Origin: Bacteroidota bacterium
GTDB taxonomy: Bacteria; Bacteroidota; Rhodothermia; Rhodothermales; Bin80
DNA length: 43,040 nucleotides
Direction of reading: 5' to 3'
Assembly (NCBI GenBank): GCA_028875125.1
Contig: JAPPGC010000081.1
Location: 1 to 43,040 of the forward strand
Positions 10,359-27,464 of the stretch are shown piece after piece. The notes under the pieces were generated by a model, which worked only from the letters and a program-made list of their open reading frames with translations, had not been told where the DNA came from and ran no database searches. Each line of letters starts with the position of its first letter. The stretch's first letter is position 1. The translations under genes and the position numbers were made by a program.

Positions 10359-10685
10359 CTACTCGCTACCAGGAATCCAAAGGTGACGTGAGAGAATCAC
10401 ACAACCATCTTCATCAAAGGTTACTCCTTCCCCCCGGAGCAGGTGTTCCATAACGTCAATCCCCCCAAACTGCTTCGCCCCCGACAACGCACCATAACGG
10501 TTTACAACCCGGTGACACGGCAAGTGCGACCCTTTCGCTGCCTTGAGGGCCCACCCAACTGTGCGCGCTGCACTCCTGCTTCCCAAGTATTCGGCAATAT
10601 GCCCATAAGTGGTCACCTTTGAAACTGGAATGATGGCAACCGTATCCCAGACTTGCTGAAAAAAATCCACTCGACTTACAATCAT
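10359..10685 (-). CDS. MGMT-family DNA alkyltransferase domain protein (one domain)
   Basis: A 108-residue protein made only of the C-terminal DNA-binding domain of O6-methylguanine-DNA methyltransferase. It has the helix-turn-helix region with the base-flipping arginine (SARTVGWAL) and the active-site motif PCHRVV with the acceptor Cys (57 from this start). Alkyltransferase-like proteins of the Atl1 type replace that Cys with Trp or Ala, so this one may still be a suicide repair enzyme despite lacking the N-terminal domain. I chose ATG 10685, which shares one base with the stop of the GWxTD gene (TGATG); a TTG lies one codon upstream. It is the last gene of the long susC run; co-transcription with envelope genes may be incidental. 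Confidence 0.88.
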   Translation of the reverse strand: MIVSRVDFFQQVWDTVAIIPVSKVTTYGHIAEYLGSRSAARTVGWALKAAKGSHLPCHRVVNRYGALSGAKQFGGIDVMEHLLRGEGVTFDEDGCVILSRHLWIPGSE

Positions 10686-12463
10686 CAACGCATCTCCACG
10701 TGAAGCAGCCTGGATACTTCCAGACCTGATATTTCATCTCTGACCCTAACCCTTATGCGAATCTTTCCTATCCTTCTACCGATATCCAGAGCAACTTTGA
10801 TTCCCTCCATCCGGCTCTGCCCCTCATACTCTACACTGGTCGATGAAGTGCGCCGGCGCTCTGGCATAACCTCGTAAGTAACCGTGTATGAGGTTGCATC
10901 TTGAGCACTGTACGTGAGATGGTAAATTTCAAATTCCAGGCCGAACCTCATATCAGGAGAAACCCAATCATGAGGCCATGGCATCTGGACCCCGCTTTCG
11001 GTGTAGACAAAGGGCTTTAGATCACTCATTTCCAAAGCAAAACCGCTTGCATCCAGCGAACGGAGTGAGTCTAATCGTCGGGATGTAACCTGCAAACGAG
11101 GGCCCAATTTCTCAGCGTTGACCCCATACTGATCCCATTGAAGTGCCAAGTGATATAGTCCGGTATCTCCGGTCACCCTAATTGTCTGTACCGGAATTGT
11201 TGTCGGCTCATCAGAAGGCGGGATCTGAATGCGTATCGCATCCGAACTGCTGTGTCGCAATGAATGATCAGCCCTCTCCTGCGCTGCGTAGATTTGTACG
11301 AAGTATACCGGCTCTGATGCATGCCCCGGAGCAATCAAACCGCCGGGTTCAGGGTGCCAATAGATCTCTGTTGTCGTCGTGCCATCGGGGTCCAGAAATC
11401 TCGCATATCGTACGCCCAATGGCAGTGCGCGCAAGGTAGACAGAACGTCCGAGGTACTAGGAGGCAGCAATATTTCCTTTTGGTAGGCGGCCTGGTCATC
11501 TTCAAGTCGTGAATTCATGATCATGCCTTGGGCAAAAATATGAGCAGGCTGGCCCAAATCCTGGTCGAACTCCATGGCTTCGGGGCGCTCACCCTGGGTC
11601 AGCAAATTAGCCCCTGCAATTATCTTCGCGTTCTCCGTTAAGTCGCGGCTCTGCAGGCGCCCCGGCTCCTCGTGAGCAGCCAACCATCTATCAACCTCAT
11701 TGAATCTAGATCCAAAATGATAGTGCTCCAAGGCAAGCTGTCTGTACATGGAGCACATAACAGCAAGTACCATCCTGGACTTGACCAGTCCACGCCCGCC
11801 CTGCCCCAGACCAGACCGAAGTGCTATAGGCAATAGGTCATAGGTATCGCCAAGTCGGTACGGCTTACCATCTTGAATAAAGAGGAAATAGGCATCGCGG
11901 TCAATATTCAAATATCTCCAGAATTCATTTTCCGGAAAATCTCCGGGGCTCACAGCAACCCCTGGTTGATAAATTGCGTCAATAAGCAATGGATCATCAA
12001 ATACAATCCGCGTAATGCGCTCCGGTGCACCATATCGAACATAAATCTCCCCGCGTGCATCGTAACCCACCGGACACGTATTACATACATAGTGCTCCAG
12101 CGCATATTCCACACGCCGAACATGCTCCATCATTCGTTCATTGACCTCAGAGGCGGGGAGCGGATCCTGTGCTCTCCACCAACCTAAAATGGCGTCTCGA
12201 GCATCTGAAGTTACATGGACAGAATCCGATACCATTACCATGTGGGCAACAGTTTCAGGAAGTAATGGGAGAAGCCGCTGGACCTCAATGATCTGGGTAC
12301 CATCATTCATTGAGGGATCAGCCGCCAGAACACTCTCGTATTGGGCTACGGACTCGGCTATGGCCTCCAGATCTGTCGACTGTGCATGAACTGCCTGCAT
12401 GGTCACCAGACAAGCGGCTAAGCAGAGTACTGAATGCAATCCCGAAGACTTCTCAAAAACCAT
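10685..12463 (-). CDS. GWxTD-domain exported protein
   Basis: Member of the GWxTD domain family found in Bacteroidota, Acidobacteriota and related phyla; the function is not established. The 592-residue product has a type I signal peptide (cleavage near VHAQ, 25-28). The domain hallmark reads GWWRAQDP (94-101), followed by ERMMEHVRRVEYAL and YDARGEIYVRYG (134-145). The rest is rich in beta-strand-like sequence with no enzyme motif I recognise, and a beta-rich C-terminal region from about 380. It follows the 717-residue CRTAC1 gene with a 9-bp gap and shares one base with the alkyltransferase start. Its position at the end of a SusCD/FG-GAP run suggests an extracytoplasmic structural or binding role. 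That is inference. Confidence 0.85.
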   Translation of the reverse strand: MVFEKSSGLHSVLCLAACLVTMQAVHAQSTDLEAIAESVAQYESVLAADPSMNDGTQIIEVQRLLPLLPETVAHMVMVSDSVHVTSDARDAILGWWRAQDPLPASEVNERMMEHVRRVEYALEHYVCNTCPVGYDARGEIYVRYGAPERITRIVFDDPLLIDAIYQPGVAVSPGDFPENEFWRYLNIDRDAYFLFIQDGKPYRLGDTYDLLPIALRSGLGQGGRGLVKSRMVLAVMCSMYRQLALEHYHFGSRFNEVDRWLAAHEEPGRLQSRDLTENAKIIAGANLLTQGERPEAMEFDQDLGQPAHIFAQGMIMNSRLEDDQAAYQKEILLPPSTSDVLSTLRALPLGVRYARFLDPDGTTTTEIYWHPEPGGLIAPGHASEPVYFVQIYAAQERADHSLRHSSSDAIRIQIPPSDEPTTIPVQTIRVTGDTGLYHLALQWDQYGVNAEKLGPRLQVTSRRLDSLRSLDASGFALEMSDLKPFVYTESGVQMPWPHDWVSPDMRFGLEFEIYHLTYSAQDATSYTVTYEVMPERRRTSSTSVEYEGQSRMEGIKVALDIGRRIGKIRIRVRVRDEISGLEVSRLLHVEMR

Positions 12464-12472
12464 AATCCTCGG

Positions 12473-14626
12473 CTAAGTGTCAGGGGCTCCAAGTTGTACA
12501 GACCTGAAGGGTACCTTCTCAATTGTAGAAGTTTCTTCACGGATGCCAATCAGGTGCCGCATCGGCACGTTCTCAAACTGCTGTACTATGCCGGTGGCCG
12601 GCCATTCGATCGTCACCAACTCAATTACTGTGGCCTTGCCGAGACCAATTTCCAAGCGAAGCGGTGACGACCCAAAACTAGCACCCGTTCCGACCGTACG
12701 ATGAAGGGTGTCCGCATCTGTAACGATTGATACACGCGCTCCAACGGCACTTCGATTGGACCTTTTTCCCTCTAGAGAAAGCACAACCCAGGCATTTGAA
12801 TGCCCTGGATTCTCAAAGAGCACGTTGCGCGCGAGGTCTCCCTCAAAGGCTCCCCCCATAACCTGATACACATCCTGCGCTCCGTCTTGATTTATATCTC
12901 CGAACGCCACACCGTGTCCTTTCTGTAGGTGGCCAAAACCTCCTGCGGCCGTGACTTCTTCAAAGTGAGCCCCCCCTACATTCCGGAACATCCTGTTAGG
13001 CATGAGCGCCCGTAAGTCTGGATCACCAGTCCCCACATAAAAATCCAGCCATCCGTCTCCATCCAGATCTCCGTAGTTACACCCCATTGTGTACATAACT
13101 TTATTCAGTCCTGCCGTTTCGGTGACATCTTCAAAAGTACCATCCTGCCGATTCCGGTACAATCGGGGGCGCTCGTCTCCACCAGACATGCCAAGAAATT
13201 CGGCCGCTATATCACCGGCTGTGGCGCGCCAACCAGAAACAAATAGGTCTAGCCAGCCATCCTGATCAAAATCCCAGAACCACGCCGGGAAGCTATCTAT
13301 TGGTTCCTGTACACCTGCAGCGCCGCTTACATCCGTAAATACCCTTCCATTCTCATTACGCATAAGCAGGTTTGATTCGAGATACCTGCTGACATACAGA
13401 TCAGGCCATCCATCATTGTCATAATCCCCCCAGACCACGGCCTTCACATAGCCCATAAGCGCAATTCCATATTCACGTGCGGACTCCACAAAAGTCCCAT
13501 TACCCTGGTTAACAAATAACTCGCTTGGATGCCGCCCTGCTTGTGGATTGGACTCATTTCCTATGAACAGATCCAGATCTCCATCACGGTCAAAGTCGCT
13601 CCATGCAGCTGTCTGGGTCGGATGACGGGAATACAGTCCAGATTCTATGGTAACGTCTTCAAATTTTCCGTGACCATTATTGCGCAGAAGCGAATTGGGA
13701 TGACCCTCGCTCAGCCAAGCACCACGCAGTACAAAAACATCCTGATCGCCATCATTGTCGTAGTCTGCGTGCACCAGGTTCAGCCCCCCTGTCAAACCGG
13801 TCAACCCGGCTACGTTTGTACGCTCCTCAAAATTGCCTTTACCATTATTCTCAAAGTACCGAATCTGATCACGCAATCCCCAAGATGAAACCATAAGATC
13901 AAGCCATCCATCGCCCGACAAATCATCCAGTACAACGCCTCCAGACAGCCCCATAACATTAACACCTAAGAGCGGTCCCACATCCACAAATCTCGAAATT
14001 GATGACCCCTCTTGGAATCGATCCACGGGAATCCTCCACTTGGCATCAACACTATCTGGGTGCGTACCCAGCGTCATGTGAGCCAGATTCAGCAACCACA
14101 AAGCATTCAAATCCTCTGAGTCCTCTTCAAGAATTTTTTCATACCACGGTATGGCCATTGCTGACCCCCTGGGCAGCGTATGAACGCCTGTGGAACCGAT
14201 CGGGAACAGGCATCGTGTGGAACTGTGATCCACCAGGCAGTTTTCTTGCTCTCCAATCCGCAGATGGCTGAGCGCCAGATGATCCATAGCAGCCAAACGC
14301 CACGACGGATCAAATTCATCCGGGGAAGCCTCCAGTAATTGTAGGATCTCATCAAATACCCCAACTGCAGCTTCGCTATCCCCTGCCCGCAGCAGCTCGG
14401 TCCCGAGTAAAGCGCTGTACTGTATTCGATCGGGAAGTGCTGTTGGAATGGTCTGCATGCCCACCGCGGCTGCGCGTGCCACATTTGCATGAGCATTTCG
14501 GCGCGGGTTCCGGTCGGTTTCCGCCGCAATTGCTTCAAGCTCTGCGACCATTCGTGCCGTGCCCTCGGGCTCGGTTGAACTGCACGCAGCGAATAACAGA
14601 AAGACCAGTGTCAAATGACGTAACAT
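12473..14626 (-). CDS. CRTAC1-family FG-GAP/UnbV lipoprotein (717 aa)
   Basis: Exported lipoprotein; the signal peptide ends LLFAAC, giving Cys15 (Phe at -3 is unusual). Residues about 25-200 form a TPR-like helical region ending in the block conserved in this family (ENCLVDHSSTRCLFP, then a GS..AI..YEKIL helix). From about 205 to 600 there are seven or more FG-GAP/VCBS repeats with calcium-loop signatures such as DYDNDGDQD, DFDRDGDLD and DYDNDGWPD, predicted to make a beta-propeller. An ASPIC/UnbV domain closes the protein (about 630-705: VGARVSIV, a GTGASFGSS block and IEWPATG). No catalytic residues are recognisable. It is 4 bp downstream of the second 1200-residue paralogue and is clearly in the same transcription unit. 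Confidence 0.9.
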   Translation of the reverse strand: MLRHLTLVFLLFAACSSTEPEGTARMVAELEAIAAETDRNPRRNAHANVARAAAVGMQTIPTALPDRIQYSALLGTELLRAGDSEAAVGVFDEILQLLEASPDEFDPSWRLAAMDHLALSHLRIGEQENCLVDHSSTRCLFPIGSTGVHTLPRGSAMAIPWYEKILEEDSEDLNALWLLNLAHMTLGTHPDSVDAKWRIPVDRFQEGSSISRFVDVGPLLGVNVMGLSGGVVLDDLSGDGWLDLMVSSWGLRDQIRYFENNGKGNFEERTNVAGLTGLTGGLNLVHADYDNDGDQDVFVLRGAWLSEGHPNSLLRNNGHGKFEDVTIESGLYSRHPTQTAAWSDFDRDGDLDLFIGNESNPQAGRHPSELFVNQGNGTFVESAREYGIALMGYVKAVVWGDYDNDGWPDLYVSRYLESNLLMRNENGRVFTDVSGAAGVQEPIDSFPAWFWDFDQDGWLDLFVSGWRATAGDIAAEFLGMSGGDERPRLYRNRQDGTFEDVTETAGLNKVMYTMGCNYGDLDGDGWLDFYVGTGDPDLRALMPNRMFRNVGGAHFEEVTAAGGFGHLQKGHGVAFGDINQDGAQDVYQVMGGAFEGDLARNVLFENPGHSNAWVVLSLEGKRSNRSAVGARVSIVTDADTLHRTVGTGASFGSSPLRLEIGLGKATVIELVTIEWPATGIVQQFENVPMRHLIGIREETSTIEKVPFRSVQLGAPDT

Positions 14627-14630
14627 GAAT

Positions 14631-17600
14631 CTACGGCCTTGTCAGCAACACCCTGCTGCCCTCCTCCAGCTTCACTGTAACCGGTTGCCGACCACCTGGC
14701 CAGGTCACTTCAACGCCAACTGGAGTGCCGCTATACCCAAGTGTAGCCGTTGTCGCATTCTGCGACCAATATCCCGTTCCTCCAGTTACTAAGCGGGCCG
14801 GTCCTTTACTCCCATCTGAGTAGACTACACATAGAATTGCCCCAATAGCATCCGTAGCAGAAGCAAATCCAATAGAAATGCCCTTCTTATCCGACGCTTT
14901 TCGATACACAAGTGTCGCACCATTGTGCTGTGAAAATGCGACCTCATCCTGTCCGTCTCCATCAAAATCTCCAATAGAGACTGCCCGCCCTTCTCCATAG
15001 ACTTCAAAACCGGATTGGGGCGCCGACGTGAACGTGCCATCACCATGACCCAAAAGCAAGAGCCCCCGGCCTGCATCCTGCCTCGGTGTTGAAAAAGGGA
15101 AAGCGAACCAGTTCTGAGATAAAATGATGTCTTCGTGCCCATCAAGATTCGCATCCAATACAACAGGGCTGATCCCTGCACTGTATTGTGCTTCGGCAGG
15201 CAATGGACGGTGCTCAAAATGATCTCCCCTGTTGAGAAAAATACTTGATGCATAGATATCAGCTTCGACGATCTGAGCATTATCGGTTGCTGCTGGCATA
15301 AGCTGTGCGACCTCCATGGTGCTGAAGTCCTGGTGCGATGTAACGCGCATCTGCATTGGAGGGATGACCGATATCAGATCAGCGAGCATGCGTGAGGGCC
15401 GATAACTATTCGTGACCGGATCCAGAAAGGATTCCAGAATGTCAGTCGTACCACTAGCATCAATATCCCCGTAGTACAGTCGCACCCTTGTGCTGCGATC
15501 ATAACGGCTGTTCCACCCAGCATTTGAAGCAACAATATCCAGTCTGTGATCACCGTCAAAATCACCGATTGATACACCACGCCACAAGCCTCGGAAGGAT
15601 TGAAGACCGAACAATTCAGTCTGATCTGAAAAACCCTCCTCTCCGTTTATCAGTATTCGAATCGGCCCCCATTCCGTGGCAAGCACCAGATCCGTGCGTC
15701 CGTCTCCGTTTATATCTCCGAACACACTGCCGCTTACAGGCCCTAATCCTGTCAGAGATTCTCCAAGCCCGTAAGCTCCTCGTTCGTTCAAGTAGAAATG
15801 ACTGTTTGCAGCGCTCGGATACACCCCGGGAATGAAATGTCCCCCTACGAAAAGATCAAGATCCCCATCCAAATTGATATCCGCCACCGACAGCGGTCCG
15901 GGAACACCCATACCAAAGGGGATCCTTTGATGCTGTAATTCCTCGCCATTCGGCGCGATATCGTAAATATGAACCCAGGACGAGTCTGGAAAGCGCTCGT
16001 AGCCGGACTCCCCCACCATTACGCGTATACGGCCAGGGATGATGGGGAGAGCAATCATGCCTGTTGCGTCACCTGGCAGTGGGTCCAGGATCGGACGGCC
16101 CTGAAGTCTGAAGGTCTGGCTCCGCCCTGCACTTTCCAGTAACTCGAAACGACCATCTCCATCAACATCTACGGCAGCGATTGCCGGTCCCCGCCGGCTG
16201 AGGCGCCAGGGCAGTAGCGGCTGGAGCTGAAAATCATCAAACCCAGACTCTAGCCGCGGCTCGGTCAGCGAATGTAGTGTGTACAAAGGTGCTACCTGGG
16301 AAGCCGACTGTAATTCAGTCGGATGCGTAGCCCCCGATTCTTCAATCACATACAATCGGTTTGCCGCCTCCACGTCAACACTTGAATGTTTCCCCATCGG
16401 CCAGGAAACTTCAATCCGGCATGGAGCAGATCCCACTGCAAAAACCGCGATCAGTTGATTGGACGACAGATAACCTCCGCCCAAAGACATTTGCTTGGAC
16501 TGCTCCGGTAAACCTGCACAATGTACACGTATGTCCGCCCCAACCCCACCCGTGTTTGGGGGCTCACCTTCCAGCATAACTGCCAACCGATCCGCCTTCC
16601 CGGTATTGCGATAAACACCTGGGGGCGCATTCAGCCTGTTTGTAACGACGTCCAAATCTCCGTCTCCATCCAAATCTCCCAGTGCCATTCCATGCGCGAC
16701 ATCGGCGCTTTGACCCAACCCCCATCCCCCAGGCATATCCTCAAACGTTAAATCTCCACGGTTTCGAAACGCTATATTTTCAAGTTCAAGGGGCGGAAAA
16801 TTCAGGAGTAATCTTCTGGCTGCCTGCCATGAGGGAGCGGACGCCATGCGAAGCTGCTCCATCCCTTGTGCATCCAGATCCTGTACATCATATACGTGTC
16901 CCGTGGTGATCAAAATGTCTTCCCAACCATCCAAATCAACATCCATGAAACTCGTAGCCCAAGACCAGTCAGATGCAGCCACCTGTGCAAACCAGGCTAG
17001 TTCCGCGAAGGTAGTGTCTCCACGACCAATCATGAGTGCATTTTGCATTTCCTGCGGACGAAACGACAAATCACCTGGTGGACCTTCTAAGGGAATACGC
17101 GTGTTCCGCTGACGCAGCCGCCGGGAATAATCGCGACTCAACATGTCCGTCATGAAAAAATCAACAATACCGTCACGGTTCACATCTGAAAAATCCACTG
17201 ACATTGTAGCATTACTCGTCTTGCGTAACGCACGATCGGGAGCATATCGAAAAACACCATTTCCAAGCCCGATCCAGAGTGCATCGGGGCTGTCAAAATC
17301 ATTGCAGACATACAGATCTGCTATCCCGTCTCCCGTCACATCATAGAACTTGGCCGTGAGTGCCCAATCCCTCGGGATTGATGTTATTGGGTTCCCTTCA
17401 GTATCGAGAAAAGCGCCCTCGGTCCACGGGACCGGAGCAAATTGGCCAGACCCATCATTCAAATAAAGCCCGTCCGGCTCTGCAAGTTCGCTGCGTATGA
17501 CTTTGGTTCCGACTTGTGTAAACCTGTAATGCGCCTGGAATTCCTCTTTCGGAACCTGTTCCCCATCCGAGAGAACCGCTTCCCAGCTGATGGCCGCAGG

Positions 17601-18233
17601 ATGCAGGCTGTCGGCCAGTGCAATGCGCTTGTAACGGGCAATGTATGCATCCAAATCTCCGTCATGATCAACATCAGCCAAAGTCGCAGTTGTGCTGGCG
17701 TACGAAGAATTCAGTCCTGACGCGTTAGGGACGAGCTCAAACCTGCCCCCTCCCAGATTGTGGAATACTGCCCCTGGACCAAGCGGCATCGTGAGGAGCA
17801 GATCCAAATCTTGATCACCATCTAGATCAGCCATAACCACCCCGGCAGTGGCACGGACTGTGCTGTCCACGCCCGCGCGTACAGAAATATTCTCAAACCT
17901 CCAATCACCAAGATTCTGATAGAGTACGTCGGGTGCTGTTAACCGGGCTACGTAAACATCCGGGAGTCCATCCCCCGTCACATCCCCAATTGCAATACCG
18001 GACCCATGCATCATGTGCCGGTTGGCGATTATCGCGTCCTCTGACACAGCATTGACCGCTTTGATCCCTGACCGCTGCGAATCAACCTCCGTGAAACCCG
18101 TACGCGAACGGCCCTGCACACTCAACTCCCGATAACGAAAACCATCTCCCTGCGTCCAGTTAGTCGTCGGATGAGTACAGCCTGCTATCGTGATAACGGT
18201 AACGATTGCCCATATTCGATAACCAGCATTCAT
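14631..18233 (-). CDS. Large FG-GAP/UnbV lipoprotein, paralogue B (~1200 aa)
   Basis: Lipoprotein with lipobox IAGC (Cys19). It has two tandem halves, each a set of FG-GAP/VCBS calcium-loop repeats closed by a UnbV-like domain. The first half (about 70-640) contains DVTGDGLPD, DLDGDQDLD, DVDHDGDLD, DVNRDGIVD, DVDLDGWED and DLDGDGDLD, then a UnbV domain (GVGADIRV and VSWPMGKHSS). The second half contains DVDGDGRFE, DINLDGDLD, DINGDGRTD, DFDGDHRLD and DFDGDGQDE, then AIGAILCVVYSDGS and VTWPGGRQP. Non-repeat blocks shared with the upstream paralogue include VCNDFDSPD, TDMLSRDY, RPQEMQNA and TTGHVYD. Start chosen: ATG 18233; a GTG immediately precedes it at 18236. It begins 4 bp after the paralogue A stop. 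Function unknown; likely a surface binding or assembly protein. Confidence 0.9.
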   Translation of the reverse strand: MNAGYRIWAIVTVITIAGCTHPTTNWTQGDGFRYRELSVQGRSRTGFTEVDSQRSGIKAVNAVSEDAIIANRHMMHGSGIAIGDVTGDGLPDVYVARLTAPDVLYQNLGDWRFENISVRAGVDSTVRATAGVVMADLDGDQDLDLLLTMPLGPGAVFHNLGGGRFELVPNASGLNSSYASTTATLADVDHDGDLDAYIARYKRIALADSLHPAAISWEAVLSDGEQVPKEEFQAHYRFTQVGTKVIRSELAEPDGLYLNDGSGQFAPVPWTEGAFLDTEGNPITSIPRDWALTAKFYDVTGDGIADLYVCNDFDSPDALWIGLGNGVFRYAPDRALRKTSNATMSVDFSDVNRDGIVDFFMTDMLSRDYSRRLRQRNTRIPLEGPPGDLSFRPQEMQNALMIGRGDTTFAELAWFAQVAASDWSWATSFMDVDLDGWEDILITTGHVYDVQDLDAQGMEQLRMASAPSWQAARRLLLNFPPLELENIAFRNRGDLTFEDMPGGWGLGQSADVAHGMALGDLDGDGDLDVVTNRLNAPPGVYRNTGKADRLAVMLEGEPPNTGGVGADIRVHCAGLPEQSKQMSLGGGYLSSNQLIAVFAVGSAPCRIEVSWPMGKHSSVDVEAANRLYVIEESGATHPTELQSASQVAPLYTLHSLTEPRLESGFDDFQLQPLLPWRLSRRGPAIAAVDVDGDGRFELLESAGRSQTFRLQGRPILDPLPGDATGMIALPIIPGRIRVMVGESGYERFPDSSWVHIYDIAPNGEELQHQRIPFGMGVPGPLSVADINLDGDLDLFVGGHFIPGVYPSAANSHFYLNERGAYGLGESLTGLGPVSGSVFGDINGDGRTDLVLATEWGPIRILINGEEGFSDQTELFGLQSFRGLWRGVSIGDFDGDHRLDIVASNAGWNSRYDRSTRVRLYYGDIDASGTTDILESFLDPVTNSYRPSRMLADLISVIPPMQMRVTSHQDFSTMEVAQLMPAATDNAQIVEADIYASSIFLNRGDHFEHRPLPAEAQYSAGISPVVLDANLDGHEDIILSQNWFAFPFSTPRQDAGRGLLLLGHGDGTFTSAPQSGFEVYGEGRAVSIGDFDGDGQDEVAFSQHNGATLVYRKASDKKGISIGFASATDAIGAILCVVYSDGSKGPARLVTGGTGYWSQNATTATLGYSGTPVGVEVTWPGGRQPVTVKLEEGSRVLLTRP

Positions 18234-18237
18234 CACA

Positions 18238-21200
18238 CTATTCCCGTGTGATTAGCATTGACGGTGCACCAGCCGGTACGGCTGTAACAGTAGCCGTACC
18301 ATCCGGCCAGTTTACATGTACTTTCACAATCTCGTCACCCGGAGCCAGTATAGGTTCAGCACTGCTCTGCGACCAATACCCGCTTCCAGCAACTATAGGC
18401 ACGGAGGGACCCAGGCTGCCATCGCGATATTCCGCGCGTACATTCCCCCCAACTCCAGCCTGATTCGCGCCAAACAGACGCAATTCAACACGAAGCCCTT
18501 TCGCGGCAGTCCTATTCCGGAGGAGCACTACCGGTCCTGCATTCTGAGCAACTGCAAGATCCAGTCGACCGTCACGATCAAAATCCGCTCTCACCGCTGC
18601 CCGCTGTGAACCGTATATGTAAATACCTGATACCTGCGCCGGCTGGGGGACAAGCTGATGAGATTCATCCGCCAATAGTAGCAGTCCCAGACCACTGTCC
18701 AAACGTGGGTTGCCTGAGGGCACAGCAAAAAAGTTTTGACTCAGAAACAAGTCTGTGCGCCCGTCACCATTGAAATCCCCCGGTACAGGTGCAAAAGCGG
18801 GCGACCATTGGGCTTCATCGGCGAGCGGCACCGCCTCGTAGTGAGATTCCCGATTCAGGAACACCATTGTTCGCCATTCCGTGACCTCGTGATAATTAGC
18901 CTCGCTCAATACAGGGCCAAAAATACCCATCGCCGAGCTTGTCGCAAATTCCTCGTAAGTCCGAATATGCTGCCGCAGCGTCGGCAAAGCATGCGTGAGT
19001 GTGCGAAAATCCCGTACCAAACCAAACGCATCTAACTCCGGGATATGCTGTACTTCCAGAATATCCAGACTGCCATTGTTATCCAGGTCTCCGTAATACG
19101 CACGGAGCGGTACATCTTGGGCATATGGATGATTCTGTCCCCAGTTGGTTGCAACCAAGTCTATTTTTCCGTCCCCGTCAAAATCTGCGGGTGCCACACC
19201 ATTCCACCATCCCGTATGCTCGGCTAATCCCAACGCACGCGTCATCCGTACTAGCTGCCCGCCCCCCCGGTTGTGAAATACATGAACGGGCCCCCACATC
19301 GTCGCAAGTGCTAAATCGGTAGTACCATCACCATTGAAATCGACGGCAGTAGCGCCGGAAACGAGCCCCAGTTTTTCGAATGGTGCACTAAGCGTGTCAT
19401 CTCGTACAAGCATTCCGCCTTCGTGCCGATAAATGGCACTGCTCACATTCACCGGATACTGTCCGGGCATGAAATGCCCACCTACAAAGAGCTCAAGCCT
19501 ACCATCACCGGTAAAATCTCCCAATGCGAGTGGCCCGGGGCTCTCCTGTCCGAAAGTAAATGAGGTATCGCCGCCGTCCTGCATTGAGACCCGAGTGATT
19601 TTCGAATCTTCTGCTAGATCCTCTGGCGTGCGTTCATAGTTGCTCATTCCTGCCAGCACATTATCGCTACCCGGGAAAACCACTATACCCCCGTGATCGC
19701 CTGAAGAAGGCTCGCTGAAGCTCCCAGAAATATTGAATCGACCGCCGTTATTTTGTATGAACCTAAGTGGCTCGCCCTTGCCTCCCCCCAGAATCAGATG
19801 CTCATAGCCGCCACTATCCATGGCTGTGACCGCTAGCGCTGGGCCCCGCTGGCTAAGTTTATGTGGCAGAAGTGGTTGTCGATCAAAGTCTGGATAACTG
19901 GATTCCTGGTGCTCCAACCCTATGCTCAACACTGTGAACATCGTCCCTGTTACCTGTACCACAGACGGTTCGGACGCTTCTATTTGAGGCTGGAAGATCC
20001 GGTACTCGCTACCAGGCAGGACCTCCTCTATGACACTGCGACTACCGTCTGCCCAATGCACTTCAATCTGTGCGCCGGGTGCATAGGCAAACGTAAGCGA
20101 TGCGTCGCTTGAGGAGAGGTATAGTCCACCTACAAGGATTTCTTGCCGCTGAGGAGGTAGGTTCTCGCTGGTAACCTGCACCACAGCGCCAACCCCCTGC
20201 GGGTTCGGCGCATTCCCCCGAAGACGAACAAGAATTCGCTCACCTTCGGCATCATTCCGAAATACACCCACCGGGGCGTCCAGGCGATTAATGATCACAT
20301 CCTGATCTCCGTCTTCGTCAAGGTCTGCGAAGGCCATTCCATGTGCTACATCAGCGACGACCCCAAGCCCCCAACCTTCCTCAACCCACTCAAACCGGGC
20401 GTCACCGAGATTGCGAAACGCAATATTTGGTAGATCCAGATCTGGAAAATCCAACAGAACTTCCCGCCAGGGGCGTCGGGAAGACCCTGCGGCGATTTGT
20501 GCATCTGCATCCATTGCATCGTATGCATGACCGGTAGTGAGGAGCAAATCCTGCAGACCATCCAGGTCCACATCAATGAATGCACTGCTCCATGTCCAGC
20601 CCGTCGCGGCAACGCCACTCATGCGTGCTATTTCGGAATAGGTTGTATCGGAGCGATTCAATAGCAGCATGTTCTGCATCTCCTGAGGACGTGCATGAAT
20701 ATCTCCCATCATTACAACTTCGGGAGGTATTACAAAATGCTGTTTTTGCCTACGTACATAATCCTGACTCAGCATATCCGCCAGAAATATATCCACGTCT
20801 CCATCTGCATCAATATCTGCGGCGGCCACGGACATCGTCGACTGACTGGTCTTCCTCAGGGCCAGTGTAGAGACTGCCTTGAAAGTACCTTCTGCGCTGC
20901 CCAACCAAAAATGATCAGGGCTCTCGAAATCATTGCACACATAAAGATCCTGGTGCCCATCTCCGTTAAAGTCCTGAAAGCGTACCGCGAGCGTCCAATC
21001 TCGCGGGGTTTCCCTCAGCGGATGACCTTCTTCGTCCAAAAACAGTCCTTCGGTAAAGGGTACTTCGGTAAAGAATCCTGTCCCATCATTGAAGAATACG
21101 CGATCCGGCTCTGCCAACTCCACACGCATCAAGCGGTCGCCCTGGCGTATGAGTTTGTATTCATCGGCCCAGTAATCATTGACCACGAACGAGTCTGCTA

Positions 21201-21876
21201 CTTGTTTCACGACTCGTTCAAAGGCGATTTCATTGGGCGGCCAGATATCTTTGACTGTGGCCTCCTTGTAAAAGCCTGCATACAGATCCAGATCACCATC
21301 CTGATCCATATCTGCCAGCGCAACCGAGGTTGCGCCGCCGGACTGCGGAAGGTTTGCCTGTGCGGTATGGTCCGTGAATTGACCTACTCCATCGTTCAGG
21401 AATAGTTGTACACCGCTTCCGAGCGATGTCACAAACAGATCCAGATCACCGTCAGCATCAACATCAACGAACGACGCTCCGGTTGCGCGCGGGTTCACCA
21501 ATCCCAGATTAGCCCGAAGGGTCACATCCTCAAATTGCCAACCCCCCTGGTTGCGATGAAGCGTACTCCGATGTTCCATACCTGGCAGAAAAACATCTGG
21601 CAGACCGTCCCCGTCGACATCACCCGTTGCCACCCCCGATCCATTTACAACATGCCGGTTGGTTACGAAAGCCGAGGTGCTGATTGCGTTGCTGAACGCA
21701 ATGGAATTGGAGACTTCGGTAAACCCTGTACCTTTCCCGATCGGGGAAAAAAGCGGACGTACTTCATACCCTTCGAAAGGCATCCACGTACGATCGGTCT
21801 CCCGACCGCATCCGAAGAAGACCGGCGCGCCAAGCAGGACGAAGCACAGGGTGCTATTCACAGGCCATCTGTACAT
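18238..21876 (-). CDS. Large FG-GAP/UnbV lipoprotein, paralogue A (1212 aa)
   Basis: Same two-half architecture as the downstream paralogue, indicating a tandem gene duplication. The signal peptide ends VFFGC (Cys23; Phe at -3 makes the lipobox non-ideal). Calcium-loop repeats include DVDGDGLPD, DVDADGDLD, DMDQDGDLD, DFNGDGHQD, DIDADGDVD, DVDLDGLQD and DLDEDGDQD in the first half, closed by a UnbV domain (GVGAVVQV and VHWADGSRSV). DFTGDGRLE, DFNGDGTTD, DFDGDGKID, DFNGDGRTD and DFDRDGRLD fill the second half, closed by GVGGNVRAEYRDGS and VNWPDGTATV. The family carries no known catalytic residues. It starts 14 bp after the small lipoprotein gene. Long antisense open frames inside it are codon-bias shadows. 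Confidence 0.9.
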   Translation of the reverse strand: MYRWPVNSTLCFVLLGAPVFFGCGRETDRTWMPFEGYEVRPLFSPIGKGTGFTEVSNSIAFSNAISTSAFVTNRHVVNGSGVATGDVDGDGLPDVFLPGMEHRSTLHRNQGGWQFEDVTLRANLGLVNPRATGASFVDVDADGDLDLFVTSLGSGVQLFLNDGVGQFTDHTAQANLPQSGGATSVALADMDQDGDLDLYAGFYKEATVKDIWPPNEIAFERVVKQVADSFVVNDYWADEYKLIRQGDRLMRVELAEPDRVFFNDGTGFFTEVPFTEGLFLDEEGHPLRETPRDWTLAVRFQDFNGDGHQDLYVCNDFESPDHFWLGSAEGTFKAVSTLALRKTSQSTMSVAAADIDADGDVDIFLADMLSQDYVRRQKQHFVIPPEVVMMGDIHARPQEMQNMLLLNRSDTTYSEIARMSGVAATGWTWSSAFIDVDLDGLQDLLLTTGHAYDAMDADAQIAAGSSRRPWREVLLDFPDLDLPNIAFRNLGDARFEWVEEGWGLGVVADVAHGMAFADLDEDGDQDVIINRLDAPVGVFRNDAEGERILVRLRGNAPNPQGVGAVVQVTSENLPPQRQEILVGGLYLSSSDASLTFAYAPGAQIEVHWADGSRSVIEEVLPGSEYRIFQPQIEASEPSVVQVTGTMFTVLSIGLEHQESSYPDFDRQPLLPHKLSQRGPALAVTAMDSGGYEHLILGGGKGEPLRFIQNNGGRFNISGSFSEPSSGDHGGIVVFPGSDNVLAGMSNYERTPEDLAEDSKITRVSMQDGGDTSFTFGQESPGPLALGDFTGDGRLELFVGGHFMPGQYPVNVSSAIYRHEGGMLVRDDTLSAPFEKLGLVSGATAVDFNGDGTTDLALATMWGPVHVFHNRGGGQLVRMTRALGLAEHTGWWNGVAPADFDGDGKIDLVATNWGQNHPYAQDVPLRAYYGDLDNNGSLDILEVQHIPELDAFGLVRDFRTLTHALPTLRQHIRTYEEFATSSAMGIFGPVLSEANYHEVTEWRTMVFLNRESHYEAVPLADEAQWSPAFAPVPGDFNGDGRTDLFLSQNFFAVPSGNPRLDSGLGLLLLADESHQLVPQPAQVSGIYIYGSQRAAVRADFDRDGRLDLAVAQNAGPVVLLRNRTAAKGLRVELRLFGANQAGVGGNVRAEYRDGSLGPSVPIVAGSGYWSQSSAEPILAPGDEIVKVHVNWPDGTATVTAVPAGAPSMLITRE

Positions 21877-21890
21877 TCAGGACGCCCCGG

Positions 21891-22379
21891 CTACATCACG
21901 CCACCCTTGAACTCATTCTCAAGGTACTCGGCAATTTCTTCAAAGTATGCTTCACGTCCGGACATGATTGGAACTTCTACCCAATTACCGCCCCCTGCAA
22001 GCTGCCCCTCACACTCGGCTACCATACGTGCGGCAAATGTACTGCCTGTACCTCCCGCGCGGCTGCGCGGACGTGCCGTGACCGAAACGCGCACTCTCAC
22101 TTGAGAATACCCGGCCAGTTGTTCCTCTTCAAGCGCATTAACTGCCTTCCACGATGTCTCCAAGCGTACATCCTCAGCCGTGTCTACGCGTCGATCTAAT
22201 CGATATCCGTACCGTGTCAGCAGCGCATTTTCAGCGGTTGTGACGATATGATTCCGCGCTGAGGTCCCTAGGTTGAACCTCAGCGTACTACTGGGGGCAT
22301 GGTCACCCTCAGAACCGGGACCGGAGCAGGCCCCCAGGAATAATGCGATGCCCAAAGCCAAAATCGTTACACGATACAT
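21891..22379 (-). CDS. Small lipoprotein of unknown function
   Basis: A 162-residue predicted lipoprotein with lipobox LGAC (Cys18) and a short Gly/Ser linker after it. The rest is a compact alpha/beta-looking domain with alternating strands (VRVRVSVTARPR), a Gly/Arg-rich patch (SRAGGTGS) and a C-terminal amphipathic helix (EAYFEEIAEYLENEF). I do not recognise the family; its size and envelope location are reminiscent of LptE-like or DUF4136-like lipoproteins, but no motif supports either. I chose the ATG at 22379 over an in-frame TTG one codon upstream. It lies 102 bp after susD, behind a strong stem-loop and a promoter-like element, and 14 bp before paralogue A. Confidence 0.75.
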   Translation of the reverse strand: MYRVTILALGIALFLGACSGPGSEGDHAPSSTLRFNLGTSARNHIVTTAENALLTRYGYRLDRRVDTAEDVRLETSWKAVNALEEEQLAGYSQVRVRVSVTARPRSRAGGTGSTFAARMVAECEGQLAGGGNWVEVPIMSGREAYFEEIAEYLENEFKGGVM

Positions 22380-22409
22380 CAAATCTACCCGTATTTAGTC
22401 ATGATTATC

Positions 22410-22481: not shown

Positions 22482-24107
22482 TTAGCGGGGACGGACATTG
22501 TCGGAATCCTGCCGATAATCATCCCGTAGATAGGCCACCGGAGCACCTCCAGTGCTACCAACACCACCAAACGTATAATTTTGTAATCCCAGCGTCTCCA
22601 GTTCCCTGCCTGGCACAGGGAAATGGATGGGGGTACCTGTGACAAGGTCACCCAGTCCCCTATCATCATAATATGCCAGGCCAGCCCAAGTCTGGAATGT
22701 TTCTATGCGCCGTTCATGCTTAAGCTTCGCCCACAGACTAGCCGAATCCATGTGACTCTGCGCATCTGTAGACGAACCGGGGGAATCCGTAGCAGCGGCC
22801 GGATTTAGCATTCCCCGACTCACGCGGGTTTTGTTAATCAGATCAGCAACCACGGATGCACTGCCATTTGTACGCAAAAGGGCCTCGGCTTTGTACATAT
22901 CCATCTCTGCCATAATCATGTGGGGCATTGCGCCATTTGCGTTCCCCTGATTGTAGTACTGATAACGCTTATGATTATGCGATGAATAGTGATAAACACC
23001 GCGTGCAGCCGGGAATGGCCCATTGTTTCCCTGATATTGGAAGTCGGAGCCATCGACACTTAGGTCGGTGGCGTCTCCAACGATCCTGCGATCTGCTGTG
23101 GCAATGTCGAAGACTAAGCGTTCGCCCAAAGGTTTTGCCAGCCATGCATTGTAACCGCCAGACTCATCTGCCGGCCCAATCGTGCGGTAATCAACTCTGC
23201 TCCAGGTAGTCCCGTTTTGTCCATAGAACTTAAGGCAATCCCATTCCGTATTGCCGTCGTCATCACCAATGGGCGAGAAATCTTCGGTAATCCCGGCATC
23301 TACGCGACTCATAACTTCGCTCCAGTTTACCGCGGCGCGTTCAGACTCGTCACGAGCGACCTGAACATTTAACCGGGCGACGAACGAATTAATCAGTTTA
23401 ACCATTTCGTCTGAAGTTACATCCAAGCCCCAGATCCAATCTTCAGCCGCGGTAAACGAAAATGAGCCTGCCTGCGCAATCGCACGCGCCTCTTCAAGCA
23501 TCTCAATGGCCGCCTGGTTCACCTCCATGTACGGACGCAATTCCAGCGCATCATTCTCCAGGTCCACCGTCTCATCAACAATGAACGCTTGATCAAAGAT
23601 CAAGGAGAGTGATCCATGCATGAGGCCCTGGTTCATTTTTGCAAATGCCTTCAGGCGTGCTGTGTCAAAACCTTCGCGTGTGAAAATGTTGTTCTCCACA
23701 CTTTCTTCTTCTTCAGCACGCGCGATAGCCTGCAGGGCGTCGTTCGCATTTGAGATACCCCGGTAGGAATCAAACCATGGTTCCCTCGTGGAAGCGGCGC
23801 GACTATAGGTTGAACTGTTATCCCAGGCAATGCGAGGCTCACTTGACATGTCTCTCATTCCCCAGTTGGCCCAAGATGAGGAGTTCTCATCTGCCAATGT
23901 CGAAAAGAACATTGCACCATTGCTGCAATTCTGGATGCTGAGCCAGTAATCAGCAAACGTACCTTTGACTAGGTTCACAACATCTCCGGGCTGCGCAAAA
24001 GCTATCGTCCGGTCTGGAGCATTATTGTTTTCAACGGCCAAATCCTGGCAGCCGACAGCACTCAACGACAGTATGCCGACCAGTGCATAAAAAGCGATTC
24101 GCTTCAT
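22482..24107 (-). CDS. RagB/SusD-family nutrient-uptake lipoprotein
   Basis: Surface lipoprotein that caps the SusC pore and captures ligand. I chose the ATG at 24107 (541 residues), which starts directly with a lipoprotein signal peptide ending SAVGC (Cys20), followed by QD. An ATG at 24131 and a GTG at 24137 are in frame but would precede the signal with a charged stretch. Family features visible are the helical N-terminal repeats, WFDSYRGISNANDAL, a Glu/Asp-rich middle, and a C-terminal block with AEMDMYKAEALLR, INKTRVSRG and LKHERRIE.FQTW.GLAYYD, typical of SusD. It follows susC by 38 bp. No glycoside hydrolase or SusE/F-like gene follows; instead come FG-GAP lipoproteins, so the ligand cannot be guessed. 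Confidence 0.94.
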   Translation of the reverse strand: MKRIAFYALVGILSLSAVGCQDLAVENNNAPDRTIAFAQPGDVVNLVKGTFADYWLSIQNCSNGAMFFSTLADENSSSWANWGMRDMSSEPRIAWDNSSTYSRAASTREPWFDSYRGISNANDALQAIARAEEEESVENNIFTREGFDTARLKAFAKMNQGLMHGSLSLIFDQAFIVDETVDLENDALELRPYMEVNQAAIEMLEEARAIAQAGSFSFTAAEDWIWGLDVTSDEMVKLINSFVARLNVQVARDESERAAVNWSEVMSRVDAGITEDFSPIGDDDGNTEWDCLKFYGQNGTTWSRVDYRTIGPADESGGYNAWLAKPLGERLVFDIATADRRIVGDATDLSVDGSDFQYQGNNGPFPAARGVYHYSSHNHKRYQYYNQGNANGAMPHMIMAEMDMYKAEALLRTNGSASVVADLINKTRVSRGMLNPAAATDSPGSSTDAQSHMDSASLWAKLKHERRIETFQTWAGLAYYDDRGLGDLVTGTPIHFPVPGRELETLGLQNYTFGGVGSTGGAPVAYLRDDYRQDSDNVRPR

Positions 24108-24145
24108 TTGATTTACGTTTTCAAGTTTCATGTTCACTCACCAAA

Positions 24146-27100
24146 CTAAAACTGGAATTCCAGCTTCGCCCGAATCGTGCGAAAGGGTGGATAATTGAAG
24201 TCGTCCACACGGTATAACGTCGCATCTGATCCTGAGCCTACTTCGGGATCAAACCCTGAGTAATCAGAGAATGTCAGTAGATTGCGTCCGATGATGCTTG
24301 CTGAAACGGAATGCAGTACATTCCCAAAGATCCGTGAGAGTTGCTGGCGGTTCAATGTATATCCCACCGAGAGCTCACGCAGCTTTATGTATGTGGCATC
24401 TTCTACAAAGTGACTGTTCCTAGCAGTAGCATCGTAGAGTACTTCGTAATACGTGGTGGACTTCTTCATGTCTTCTTGTTTACTCCCCTGGTCCTGGTCG
24501 GTGTTGCGACCATCGCGATAGCTCCACTGCTTTGTGAAATTATAAACATCGCCGCCAATTTGAGCGCCCCACAGCATGTACAAAGTTAATCCCTTGTACC
24601 GGAACGTAGAGTTCAATCCAATGCTGAAATCTGGGAGAGCATCAGCGATCTGAACCTGGTCCGTCTCATTGGCCTCGTCGTAGTACTTGATCGGGATTCC
24701 CCAGCGATAACTGTTGTCGCCCGCAGAAACCCTGGTACCCCATAGATCATCCTCCCCACCCAAGACGCCATCTGCACCCGGACCACTTGTATAGCTGTTC
24801 CCCTGACCAACCGCTACGACATAGCCATCGTCGTTCACATCAAAGTAGCTCGCATCTACACCGGTGGGCAGCTCCGACAAATCTGTAATAAACCTATTGC
24901 CGTACATTGAACCCAGAATTTCGCCTTCCCGATAGAAGAACAGGTCCCGCGGTCCACCTAGATATGGATTGGAGTGAAATTCGGTGATCTCCTGACGCGT
25001 TCGGTCAAAGATGACGCCGACCTCAAAATCCATATCGCGAGAATTGTAGACATTCGCATTCACACTGGCCTCTACCGTATTTGATGCCAGGTTACCGGCA
25101 TTGCGCCACTGTGTACTGAATCCATAGTATCCCGCAAGTGGAACTCGCAGAAGGAGATCCTCCACTTCGGTATCCGCATACACCAACTCAACAAATATGC
25201 GATCCAGGACCCCTACATCCAATCCAATTTCTGTTTCCGTCTGCAATTCCGGCTTCAGAAACGCATTCCCCAGGGTCGCCTTTGAAAGCGTACCATTATT
25301 GAGTGAGAGTGTCTCATATTGTGCCTGGAATTCAGGGCGACCGCCGGCTGTCCCGACCGAGGCACGCAGCTTCAACTCGGTTACTGGACTGTTGGCCGGC
25401 CAGAAGTCCTCTTCCGATACACGCCATGCAGCACTGCCACGATAGTAAGATTGCCAACGCTCTTCTGCACCGAACAATGAACTTCCGTCCCGACGGAAGA
25501 ATACATCCACAATATACTTGTCCGCGTAGTCCATCCCGGCTGTTGCATAGTAGCCTTCAGACCGGACCGTTGAGGAGCCATTGCCAAGTAATTTCTCGCC
25601 TTCAGTCTCCACATTGGAGAGGTCCGAGATACCCAGGGTCACGATATCGGTCCCCAGTACAAATTCTGAGAATGAATCAAAATCTTCCACCTGCGCCTTG
25701 AGCTGCGCACGAGTGGTGAAGGATCCAAACCGCTTGCGGAAAGAAGCCGTAATATCATAATTGATCGCCTCACTGACCGAATTACGACGTTCAATGCGGC
25801 CATCATTTAGCGAAGAGGGATCAATCGTTTCGAATCCGATGTCGTAAAACTCCAGTTTATCCCTGTCGGAACGGTCATAGCTGAAATTGCTTTCCAGATC
25901 CATCCAGTCAAGCAGACTCCACCGTGCCCGGAAATTTCCAAGAACGCGCGAGCGATCCTGATTCATATCAGCATTCTCAATCACGTACAGCGGATTTTCC
26001 TCTACCGCCAATGGATCTGCCTGAATCTTGAGCCCACCACCATCATCCGTTGCTGAAAGGTTGACCAGTGGGTTAGTGAACATCAAACCAAAGAACGGAT
26101 TGATGTTTGAATTATTAGCCAAAGATGACCTCACCGCATCATTCTTTGACTGAGAATAGAATCCCGAAGTTGAAAGGGTTAGGGTAGGCCGAATCCGGTG
26201 ATCCAAGTTAACCCTGACGTTCCTGCGCTGGAGACCTTTCAGACCCTGAATAGCCCCCTGCTCGACAACATTCGTAAACGAAGCCAGGAAATTTGTCTTG
26301 GAACTGTTCTGACTTACACCGACATAGTTGGTCCATGTATTCCCAGGATTAAAAAATTGGTCAAACGCGTTATAGAGCGTGCCTTGATAAGGGTTGTCGT
26401 AGAAAGCAGCTCCATGTGGGTTCGTATCCTGGAGCGTACCTGGGCCGTACCCATTGCTCAAACAAGTAGCACACTCATTTTTTGCTCCTGAATCATCCAG
26501 GAAATTCCCAGATCCGTCTACCCTCAGATCGTGAGACGTATTGGCCTGGAATGACTTGACCACACCACTCACACCATACTCGTTACGAACCGTCACACGG
26601 GTCTGGTTGAGGGGAACGGCTCCGCCCCGCTGCGTTGTGATATTGATGACACCATTCTGGGCCCGTGATCCATATAGTGAAGAGGCTGCTGCCCCCTTTA
26701 CGATTTCTACATTTGCTATATCAAGCGCATCAATGTCGACCTGGTTAGCCCCGAGGACTACTCCGTCAACAATGTAAAGCGGTTGGTTATTCCCGGTAAT
26801 GCTGGTGGCTCCTCGCAGGCGTACGGAAATCCCGTCCCCCGGCGAACCAGTGCGTGCCTGAACAGCCACACCGGCAACCTTACCCTGGATTGAAGCAACG
26901 GGGTTTGACGCCGGCGCCAATGTAATCTCCTCGGAGCCTACCTGGCTCACGGTGAAGGCCAGTTTCTTCCTGGGCGTAGCTTCGGCGACACCGGTAACTA
27001 CGAACTCGTCCAGCTGCAACAGATCAGCAGACAGGACAAAATCTTCTGTCATAATGCCTTCGCTGATCGTGACGGTTCGAACTTGATCTGTAAAACCAAT

Positions 27101-27337
27101 GTAGACAGCGGTCAACTCCAATGTCTGTCCGAGATTTGCAGCAGGCACCTGGAAGGTGTAGTTTCCATCTAGGTCGGTGGACGCACCTATGGTCAGCGAC
27201 TGAATGAGCACATTCGCTCCAATGAGCGGCTCGCCTGTTTCATCGGTAACCGTTCCAGAGATTACACTCTGTGCGTTCACCAACCCTGGTAAAAGCAGCG
27301 CACATAACAACGCTGCTGCCAAAGAAAGCGTTTTCAT
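24146..27337 (-). CDS. SusC/RagA-family TonB-dependent outer-membrane receptor
   Basis: TonB-dependent import channel of the outer membrane. From ATG 27337 (1063 residues; an ATG at 27349 is also possible) it begins with a signal peptide ending GLVNAQ. A carboxypeptidase-regulatory-like domain follows (about 25-105: ISGTVTDETGEPLIGANV, DLDGNYTFQV), then a TonB-box-like region (DEFVVTG). The plug domain shows the SusC signatures PLYIVDGVV, VEIVKGAAASSLYGSRAQNG and VINITT, and a long beta-barrel ends in an aromatic residue (KLEFQF). GGGAAG-like spacing is absent, but GGAAGACTT precedes the chosen ATG. It is the first gene of the 17-kb minus-strand run and pairs with the following susD. The ligand is unknown. 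Confidence 0.95.
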   Translation of the reverse strand: MKTLSLAAALLCALLLPGLVNAQSVISGTVTDETGEPLIGANVLIQSLTIGASTDLDGNYTFQVPAANLGQTLELTAVYIGFTDQVRTVTISEGIMTEDFVLSADLLQLDEFVVTGVAEATPRKKLAFTVSQVGSEEITLAPASNPVASIQGKVAGVAVQARTGSPGDGISVRLRGATSITGNNQPLYIVDGVVLGANQVDIDALDIANVEIVKGAAASSLYGSRAQNGVINITTQRGGAVPLNQTRVTVRNEYGVSGVVKSFQANTSHDLRVDGSGNFLDDSGAKNECATCLSNGYGPGTLQDTNPHGAAFYDNPYQGTLYNAFDQFFNPGNTWTNYVGVSQNSSKTNFLASFTNVVEQGAIQGLKGLQRRNVRVNLDHRIRPTLTLSTSGFYSQSKNDAVRSSLANNSNINPFFGLMFTNPLVNLSATDDGGGLKIQADPLAVEENPLYVIENADMNQDRSRVLGNFRARWSLLDWMDLESNFSYDRSDRDKLEFYDIGFETIDPSSLNDGRIERRNSVSEAINYDITASFRKRFGSFTTRAQLKAQVEDFDSFSEFVLGTDIVTLGISDLSNVETEGEKLLGNGSSTVRSEGYYATAGMDYADKYIVDVFFRRDGSSLFGAEERWQSYYRGSAAWRVSEEDFWPANSPVTELKLRASVGTAGGRPEFQAQYETLSLNNGTLSKATLGNAFLKPELQTETEIGLDVGVLDRIFVELVYADTEVEDLLLRVPLAGYYGFSTQWRNAGNLASNTVEASVNANVYNSRDMDFEVGVIFDRTRQEITEFHSNPYLGGPRDLFFYREGEILGSMYGNRFITDLSELPTGVDASYFDVNDDGYVVAVGQGNSYTSGPGADGVLGGEDDLWGTRVSAGDNSYRWGIPIKYYDEANETDQVQIADALPDFSIGLNSTFRYKGLTLYMLWGAQIGGDVYNFTKQWSYRDGRNTDQDQGSKQEDMKKSTTYYEVLYDATARNSHFVEDATYIKLRELSVGYTLNRQQLSRIFGNVLHSVSASIIGRNLLTFSDYSGFDPEVGSGSDATLYRVDDFNYPPFRTIRAKLEFQF

Positions 27338-27464
27338 AAGTCTTCCCATGTTTTTGCTCAGTGAGTGGATTAGTATGAAGGAGAAGGGGTCCAACAGATC
27401 ACATGACCCGTGGACTTCTTAGGTTAAGAATTATTGCAATAAACAACAACGCCTCTTTAATCAG

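Follow-up and report, generated by a model that had tools for sequence, protein, structure and literature searches.

Proteins that pair FG-GAP repeats with a UnbV domain are known from animals and bacteria, and in CRTAC1, as in the bacterial ASPIC-UnbV proteins (PF07593 with PF13517 or PF01839), the core consists of a β-propeller followed by a UnbV domain, with a single propeller per chain in the CRTAC1 family. The CRTAC1 core binds metal ions, vertebrate CRTAC1 also has an EGF-like domain, and the UnbV part goes under the name 'transthyretin-like' in CRTAC1. A second relevant system is the SusCD utilisome of Bacteroides, described for levan and dextran, in which SusC, SusD and extra surface lipoproteins come from one operon and in which, as described in PMC7618045, these additional lipoproteins are seated on SusC and pass glycan on to SusCD. 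This report concerns two adjacent genes, A and B, in a stretch of 43,040 nucleotides (the window; positions 1 to 43,040 of the forward strand, and so the full length, of contig JAPPGC010000081.1, assembly GCA_028875125.1) from a Bacteroidota bacterium of the order Rhodothermales. Each encodes a protein of about 1200 residues in which the propeller-UnbV core occurs twice, and both stand in one operon with SusC and SusD genes. On balance, and with modest confidence, we read A and B as accessory binding lipoproteins of a TonB-dependent SusCD uptake system.

Architecture and predicted fold of proteins A and B

Genes A and B lie on the minus strand, as do all features given below, and are separated by 1 base pair (bp). 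Gene A (18238-21876; 1212 residues) encodes a lipoprotein-like signal, a first propeller (propeller 1, 20254-21723), a first UnbV domain (UnbV1, 20002-20196), a second propeller (propeller 2, 18514-19938) and a second UnbV domain (UnbV2, 18277-18456), as judged from the open reading frame (ORF), Pfam and a structural model. The UnbV domains were placed by profile match and the propellers by models and the match to CRTAC1, the assignment of blades being our own. Gene B (14631-18236; 1201 residues), identified as a paralogue of A by its ORF, Pfam and alignment, repeats this order, with propeller 1 at 16605-18095, UnbV1 at 16350-16547, propeller 2 at 14898-16283 and UnbV2 at 14667-14849; here the propellers were placed by alignment to A and the UnbV domains again by profile match. 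The Pfam scan found FG-GAP_3 and two UnbV_ASPIC stretches in A and likewise in B, and the two proteins are co-linear across almost their full length, with 481 of 1207 aligned columns identical (40 %). The ORFs, the identity and the Pfam matches thus bear out a first-pass annotation of this DNA, which had described tandem paralogues of about 1200 residues in the order repeats-UnbV-repeats-UnbV. A lipobox is clear in B (IAGC) and weak in A (FFGC), and one strict pattern for motifs of the Dx[DN]x[DN]G type matched 12 times in A and 8 times in B.

AlphaFold modelled mature A, from a 40-row alignment, as two propellers with a UnbV domain after each (mean predicted local distance difference test score, pLDDT, 90.3; predicted template modelling score, pTM, 0.91), and the second half of A folded alone gave pLDDT 93.2 and pTM 0.93. 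The double propeller with two UnbV domains that the annotation had foreseen is therefore supported for A by the predicted structures of the whole and of its second half, and for B by alignment to A. The best match of the whole model among solved structures was murine CRTAC1 (9etn), on half 1 (residues 26-608; Z 33.3, 450 residues aligned, root-mean-square deviation, rmsd, 2.5), while half 2 folded alone matched the same structure at Z 39.9 (441 residues aligned, rmsd 2.6), ahead of a next row at Z 30.9. Because 9etn is the top structural match of each half, both halves are predicted to be CRTAC1-like propeller-UnbV cores, and A and B, in which propeller and UnbV domain both occur twice in the chain, represent a tandem variant. 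CRTAC1 was also the top sequence match among solved structures, with an expect value (E) of 1.5e-35 from a profile and of 9.8e-12 from A alone. No Pfam match to the EGF family was seen in A or B at E 0.01, and the two proteins are not claimed as orthologues of the animal CRTAC1 gene.

Both propellers of A are read as seven-bladed, with strand D of blade 7 in propeller 1 contributed by the N-terminus. For propeller 2, eight blades were first suggested by a DSSP strand count that gave eight quartets; seven are preferred on the models because the structural matches consist of known seven-bladed folds and because about 93 residues that separate strands B and C in blade 5 look like an insert. A search of a viral structure library returned propeller resemblances of low coverage, with a TM-score to the query of at most 0.41 among the matches listed, and viral relatives were set aside. 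In one relative (G004, L041:10726-14364) the A gene contains several stop codons in its last approximately 50 codons, and the end of UnbV2 seems truncated or frameshifted, possibly through an assembly error.

Conserved faces of the two propellers

Four blocks outside the repeats, VCNDF.SPD, DMLS.DY, RPQEMQN and TTGH.YD, had been singled out by the first-pass annotation as shared by A and B and as possible parts of an active or binding site, and all four are present in both proteins. In A, model and alignment place VCNDFESPD (20914-20940) at the end of strand B and in the BC loop of blade 4, DMLSQDY (20758-20778) and RPQEMQN (20671-20691) at the start and the end of the BC insert of blade 5, and TTGHAYD (20518-20538) in blade 6, where strand B ends and the BC insert starts; the counterparts read from the sequence of B are VCNDFDSPD (17283-17309), DMLSRDY (17127-17147), RPQEMQN (17040-17060) and TTGHVYD (16887-16907). 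The blocks are confined to propeller 1 and are distinct from its calcium loops, as the annotation had also supposed, for they fall in the BC loops of blades 4, 5 and 6 while the Dx[DN]xDG loops connect strands A and B. In propellers generally, AB and CD loops share one face, and the BC and DA loops emerge on the opposite one. By this rule the four blocks would share the face opposite the calcium loops, a placement that follows from strand-order topology in the model rather than from measured distances.

Conservation was assessed in an alignment of 94 rows of long proteins, in which residue numbers are those of mature A (add 23 for the full length). In propeller 1, D293, M325, N379, W404, G426 and D435 are kept in all 94 rows, D298, M345 and W406 in 93, N292 in 92 and Q375 in 91, with D344 (85/94) and D430 (77/94) less constant. 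Broken down by group, these eleven residues are retained in 25/25 two-UnbV kin from the window's order, in 30-32 of 32 one-UnbV Bacteroidota, in 18-19 of 19 two-UnbV Verrucomicrobiota and in 3/3 two-UnbV Planctomycetota; the two rows of two-UnbV Gemmatimonadota lack Q375 in one case and D344 in both, and D430 is missing from all three Planctomycetota rows. Hence, where the blocks might have proved scattered over the structure and private to one phylum, they lie on one face by topology and their residues are kept in four phyla (Bacteroidota, Verrucomicrobiota, Planctomycetota and Gemmatimonadota), with few rows for the latter two. Propeller 2, to which the annotation had given no such feature, has a conserved face of its own, with W838, W868, N888, N892, Q1000 and N1025 each kept in 89-94 of the 94 rows.

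When a loop position counts as conserved if a single residue occupies it in 90 % or more of the 94 rows, and the calcium (AB) loops are set aside, propeller 2 has 18 such positions in BC and DA loops as against 0/25 in CD loops. Within propeller 1, the BC and DA positions are concentrated in blades 4-7 (15/122, versus 1/109 in blades 1-3; Fisher p 5e-4, for a sector picked post hoc), and it is this crowding, rather than the share of conserved positions on one face, that forms the stronger point for a putative site in the propeller 1 model.

The same conservation might also be explained by packing, the blocks being a scaffold that holds the propeller and its long loops, and the proteins calcium-stiffened spacers or assembly factors without a ligand site. 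Several of the near-invariant residues (Met, Gly, Pro and Trp) are indeed typical of packing; however, conservation is confined to blades 4-7, and single-propeller UnbV proteins manage without the blocks. Among 32 short UnbV ORFs, a set that includes the long-protein fragments L072, L099 and L026, the BC-loop signatures of blades 4-6 are nearly absent: by loose patterns, W-[ST]-W occurs in 3/32, namely the fragments L072 and L099 and the closest short kin, L060:1907-3739, and ND also in 3/32 (L099, L060 and L069). As far as such patterns reach, this rules out the blocks as general UnbV features, and a role as scaffold alone appears quite improbable.

Operon setting and association with SusC and SusD

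The operon that contains A and B, a term that here denotes gene order, strand and spacing as read from the sequence, was absent from the first-pass annotation. It begins with a SusC/RagA TonB-linked outer membrane protein (24146-27394; TIGR04056, 544 bits), directly behind which stands a SusD-like lipoprotein (22482-24137) recognized by its position and by a PF14322 match (E 5.7e-4) below the curated cut-off. There follow a small lipoprotein-like protein of 163 residues with a lipobox-like LGAC and no Pfam match (21891-22382), then A, B and protein C (12473-14626; 717 residues, with a single propeller and one UnbV domain by Pfam) and, as the last gene, a GWxTD-domain protein (10685-12463; TIGR04514, 38.6 bits), with successive gaps of 8, 99, 14, 1, 4 and 9 bp. 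Proteins A, B and C evolve under purifying selection, the ratio of non-synonymous to synonymous substitution rates (dN/dS, by NG86) being 0.13-0.18 against relative G009 and, for B, also against G004.

The arrangement recurs among relatives. Loci L042 and L045 have SusC, SusD, an ORF of about 160 residues, A, B, C and GWxTD; L049, L050 and L056 have most of this with extra genes; and in G002 and G006 A stands behind SusC-SusD with the B match on a different contig. ORFs of 158-182 residues, matched by position and size, occupy the place of the small 163-residue ORF in the regions of eight relatives, and GWxTD relatives are found at the operon end in L041, L042, L044, L045, L049, L050, L054 and L056; a literature search found no paper containing the word GWxTD. 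In relative G007 (L043:9985-13764), A and B are separated by about 3.9 kb with three ORFs, one of which matches DUF5128 (a six-bladed propeller). Protein C is a shorter UnbV lipoprotein whose N-terminal approximately 200 residues look helical by eye, and relatives of it (about 46 % identical) adjoin a long two-UnbV gene in the Gemmatimonadota contig L067 and in the Akkermansiaceae contig L074. Since the latter has no SusC, the long-plus-short pair may predate the SusCD operon.

For a wider view, the best 80 loci of a collection scan were considered, 78 of which were classified, L099 and L104 being excluded because neither has an intact long frame in which a UnbV domain was detected. Two UnbV domains were found at 24 loci (19 from Verrucomicrobiota, 3 from Planctomycetota and 1 each from Gemmatimonadota and Bacteroidota) and one UnbV domain only at 54, of which 50 are from Bacteroidota. 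The one-UnbV proteins of Bacteroidota, of about 1100 residues and annotated as 'VCBS repeat-containing protein', resemble A in having, by alignment, the same propeller-UnbV-propeller order, the same conserved residues and often a SusC-SusD neighbourhood, and differ in their single UnbV domain; 14 rows of them are 27-32 % identical to A. With association defined as a SusC-like gene on the same strand and no more than 6 kb upstream, SusC was found at 31 of the 50 one-UnbV Bacteroidota loci, farther away at 1 and absent at 13, the remaining 5 having less than 4 kb of upstream sequence. Between SusC and the long gene there are 31 SusD-sized ORFs, of which 10 were scanned, with SusD found in 10/10. 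SusC is also upstream at the one-UnbV Gemmatimonadota locus L082 and at the two-UnbV locus L061, and SusD occurs in the two-UnbV Gemmatimonadota contig L067. In all 114 of the 114 genomes searched from the window's order, a two-UnbV profile found a match with E no higher than 0.001, some of the matches being weak (to 7e-4) and perhaps due to repeats or short relatives. The source assembly itself (3.3 Mb) has 15 UnbV matches and encodes both one-UnbV and two-UnbV long forms.

By contrast with the Bacteroidota, SusC is upstream at none of 24 Verrucomicrobiota and Planctomycetota loci, 16 of which have at least 4 kb of upstream sequence. This count favours an account in which A and B are integrin-like adhesins or matrix proteins that attach cells to particles or to each other, with SusCD a loosely related neighbour; FG-GAP propellers are found in integrins, integrin alpha gives weak profile matches (E 8.5e-4), and PMC2668756 interprets FG-GAP proteins of marine flavobacterial single-cell genomes as adhesion-type. 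Integrin alphaM/beta2 fits propeller 2 at Z 26.5, similar to many other propellers. Yet CRTAC1 matches far better than integrin (E 1.5e-35), the order SusC-SusD-long gene recurs in Bacteroidota and in a Gemmatimonadota contig, and packing in the window is very tight; adhesion appears an unlikely explanation.

Proposed role and its alternatives

As accessory binding proteins, A and B would be outer-membrane lipoproteins, probably exposed at the surface, each composed of two CRTAC1-like cores. The calcium loops on one face would stiffen each propeller, and the opposite face would carry a putative site rich in conserved Asn, Asp, Gln and Trp. The proteins may then work with the SusC and SusD of their own operon, capturing a ligand and presenting it for TonB-dependent import, the ligand probably being a glycan or a similar polar polymer. 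The likeness to the Bacteroides utilisomes lies in the encoding of SusC, SusD and extra surface lipoproteins by one operon; unlike them, the present operon gave no match to a glycoside hydrolase or known glycan-binding family, and a complex of A and B with SusCD is putative.

Several observations weigh against this assignment. In propeller 1, the conserved share is no higher in BC and DA loops (16/231) than in CD loops (2/30, both of them repeat glycines), and because BC and DA loops hold most of the non-calcium loop residues (231/261), a fall of conserved positions on that face is partly to be expected. The 13 Bacteroidota loci without SusC all have at least 4 kb of upstream sequence, and the association counts carry no background rate for SusC; the absence of SusC from the Verrucomicrobiota and Planctomycetota loci implies that the protein cannot depend on SusCD everywhere. 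A strict lipobox rule is satisfied by 17/25 two-UnbV kin, 10/32 one-UnbV Bacteroidota, 1/19 two-UnbV Verrucomicrobiota and 3/3 two-UnbV Planctomycetota, and A itself, with FFGC, fails it. Finally, Pfam scans matched no carbohydrate-active enzyme family in the seven operon proteins, which makes the glycan ligand a guess.

That last result may also be turned towards catalysis, with A and B as surface enzymes, for example a sugar lyase or dehydratase, that replace the classical glycoside hydrolase of such an operon. The conserved face has invariant Asp residues, and half 2 also matches in structure the propeller of aldos-2-ulose dehydratase (Z 30.4, 342 residues aligned, rmsd 2.9, 12 % identity), an enzyme with a metal-bearing active site in its propeller. 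This is a fold match only, however, and is no better than those of many non-enzymatic propellers (LGI1 at Z 30.9, coat proteins at about 29), and the alignment of long proteins contains no invariant His/Cys metal-ligand cluster. Near the Verrucomicrobiota and Planctomycetota copies stand two sulfatases, a sulfatase-modifying enzyme and a 3-keto-disaccharide hydrolase, which would suit an enzyme; they come from 10 neighbours scanned, a selected few picked mostly for recurrence, and sulfatases are common in both phyla. Catalysis is accordingly doubtful, if still worth considering.

In genome G054 (L052:9925-14549), genes of sulfate-assimilation type, for a PAPS reductase domain, an APS kinase fused to an EF-Tu-like GTPase and a citrate/sulfate-type transporter, adjoin the SusC-SusD-long UnbV group. 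A sulfated-glycan substrate was considered and set aside, the sulfatase and sulfate-assimilation neighbours being suggestive but few, hand-picked and without a control.

A more ambitious extension of the binding-lipoprotein reading would make tandem CRTAC1-core proteins the defining subunit of widespread SusCD machines free of glycoside hydrolases. A single ligand class would be bound and processed at the two faces, and would be handled as well by the relatives from Verrucomicrobiota, Planctomycetota and Gemmatimonadota, while A and B would split the task; we hold this to be speculative and rather improbable. FG-GAP/UnbV (CRTAC1-like) cores form a known family, and relatives of about 1100 residues are common in Bacteroidota. 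Among the papers listed by the literature searches, no functional study of the long FG-GAP/UnbV proteins was found, nor any description of a tandem form that has two UnbV domains along with two conserved faces. With its named residues, a conserved site opens the function of the family to direct tests through mutation and binding assays, and it could account for SusCD operons that have no carbohydrate-active enzyme.

Origin of the two halves and divergence of A and B

The two halves of A are recognizably related. BLASTP aligned them with 36.6 % identity over 131 residues (E 2e-12) and, in the UnbV region, with 33 % over 104 residues (E 2e-7), and profile-profile comparison gave E 1.4e-51 over 466 columns, with E 3.7e-23 for UnbV1 against UnbV2, whereas three column-shuffled controls gave E 0.66-0.86. 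The halves are also unequally close to other UnbV proteins. The median score of the 32 short UnbV ORFs is 236 bits against half 1 but 137 bits against half 2, and 31 of them score higher with half 1, the exception, L026, being the C-terminal fragment of a long protein; between the halves themselves, median scores were 149 bits for half-1 rows against the half-2 model and 118 bits for half-2 rows against the half-1 model. Given that half 1 scores higher with the single-propeller UnbV proteins than with half 2, a fusion of two already different units is plausible, although faster divergence of half 2 would fit these sequence scores as well. Simple internal duplication of one propeller-UnbV unit is unsupported by the scores, which unequal rates could nevertheless mimic.

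In a tree made with FastTree only and judged by local support, from 94 rows (44 of 88 one-UnbV and all 50 two-UnbV proteins, near-identical copies removed), A and B belong to two distinct clades, both with 100 % local support and both extending to other genera of the family, which places the A/B duplication before those genera. On this tree, the two-UnbV label needs three changes. The first-pass annotation had proposed an ancient fusion and internal doubling followed by gene duplication: the clades support duplication after the double form had arisen, fusion is plausible, and plain internal doubling finds no backing in the scores.

A comparison of 12 rows from the A clade with 10 from the B clade gave 22 fixed differences, of which 17 fall in propeller 1, 2 in propeller 2, 1 in UnbV1 and 2 outside the propeller segments; the invariant site residues are common to both clades. 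Over the positions fixed in both clades, 17/174 differ in propeller 1 and 2/99 in propeller 2 (p 0.014); a per-residue count (17/463 versus 2/466, p 3e-4) was dropped as inflated by the higher conservation of propeller 1. Gene duplication after the double form would thus have given two proteins with the same site residues and with fixed differences mostly in propeller 1, through which, to judge from these alignments, A and B may differ in specificity or partner, a pattern suggestive of related but not identical ligands or partners. At a second locus of the window's own genome (L060:1907-10874, contig C29), a single-propeller UnbV protein with the block signatures is followed by two one-UnbV long proteins.

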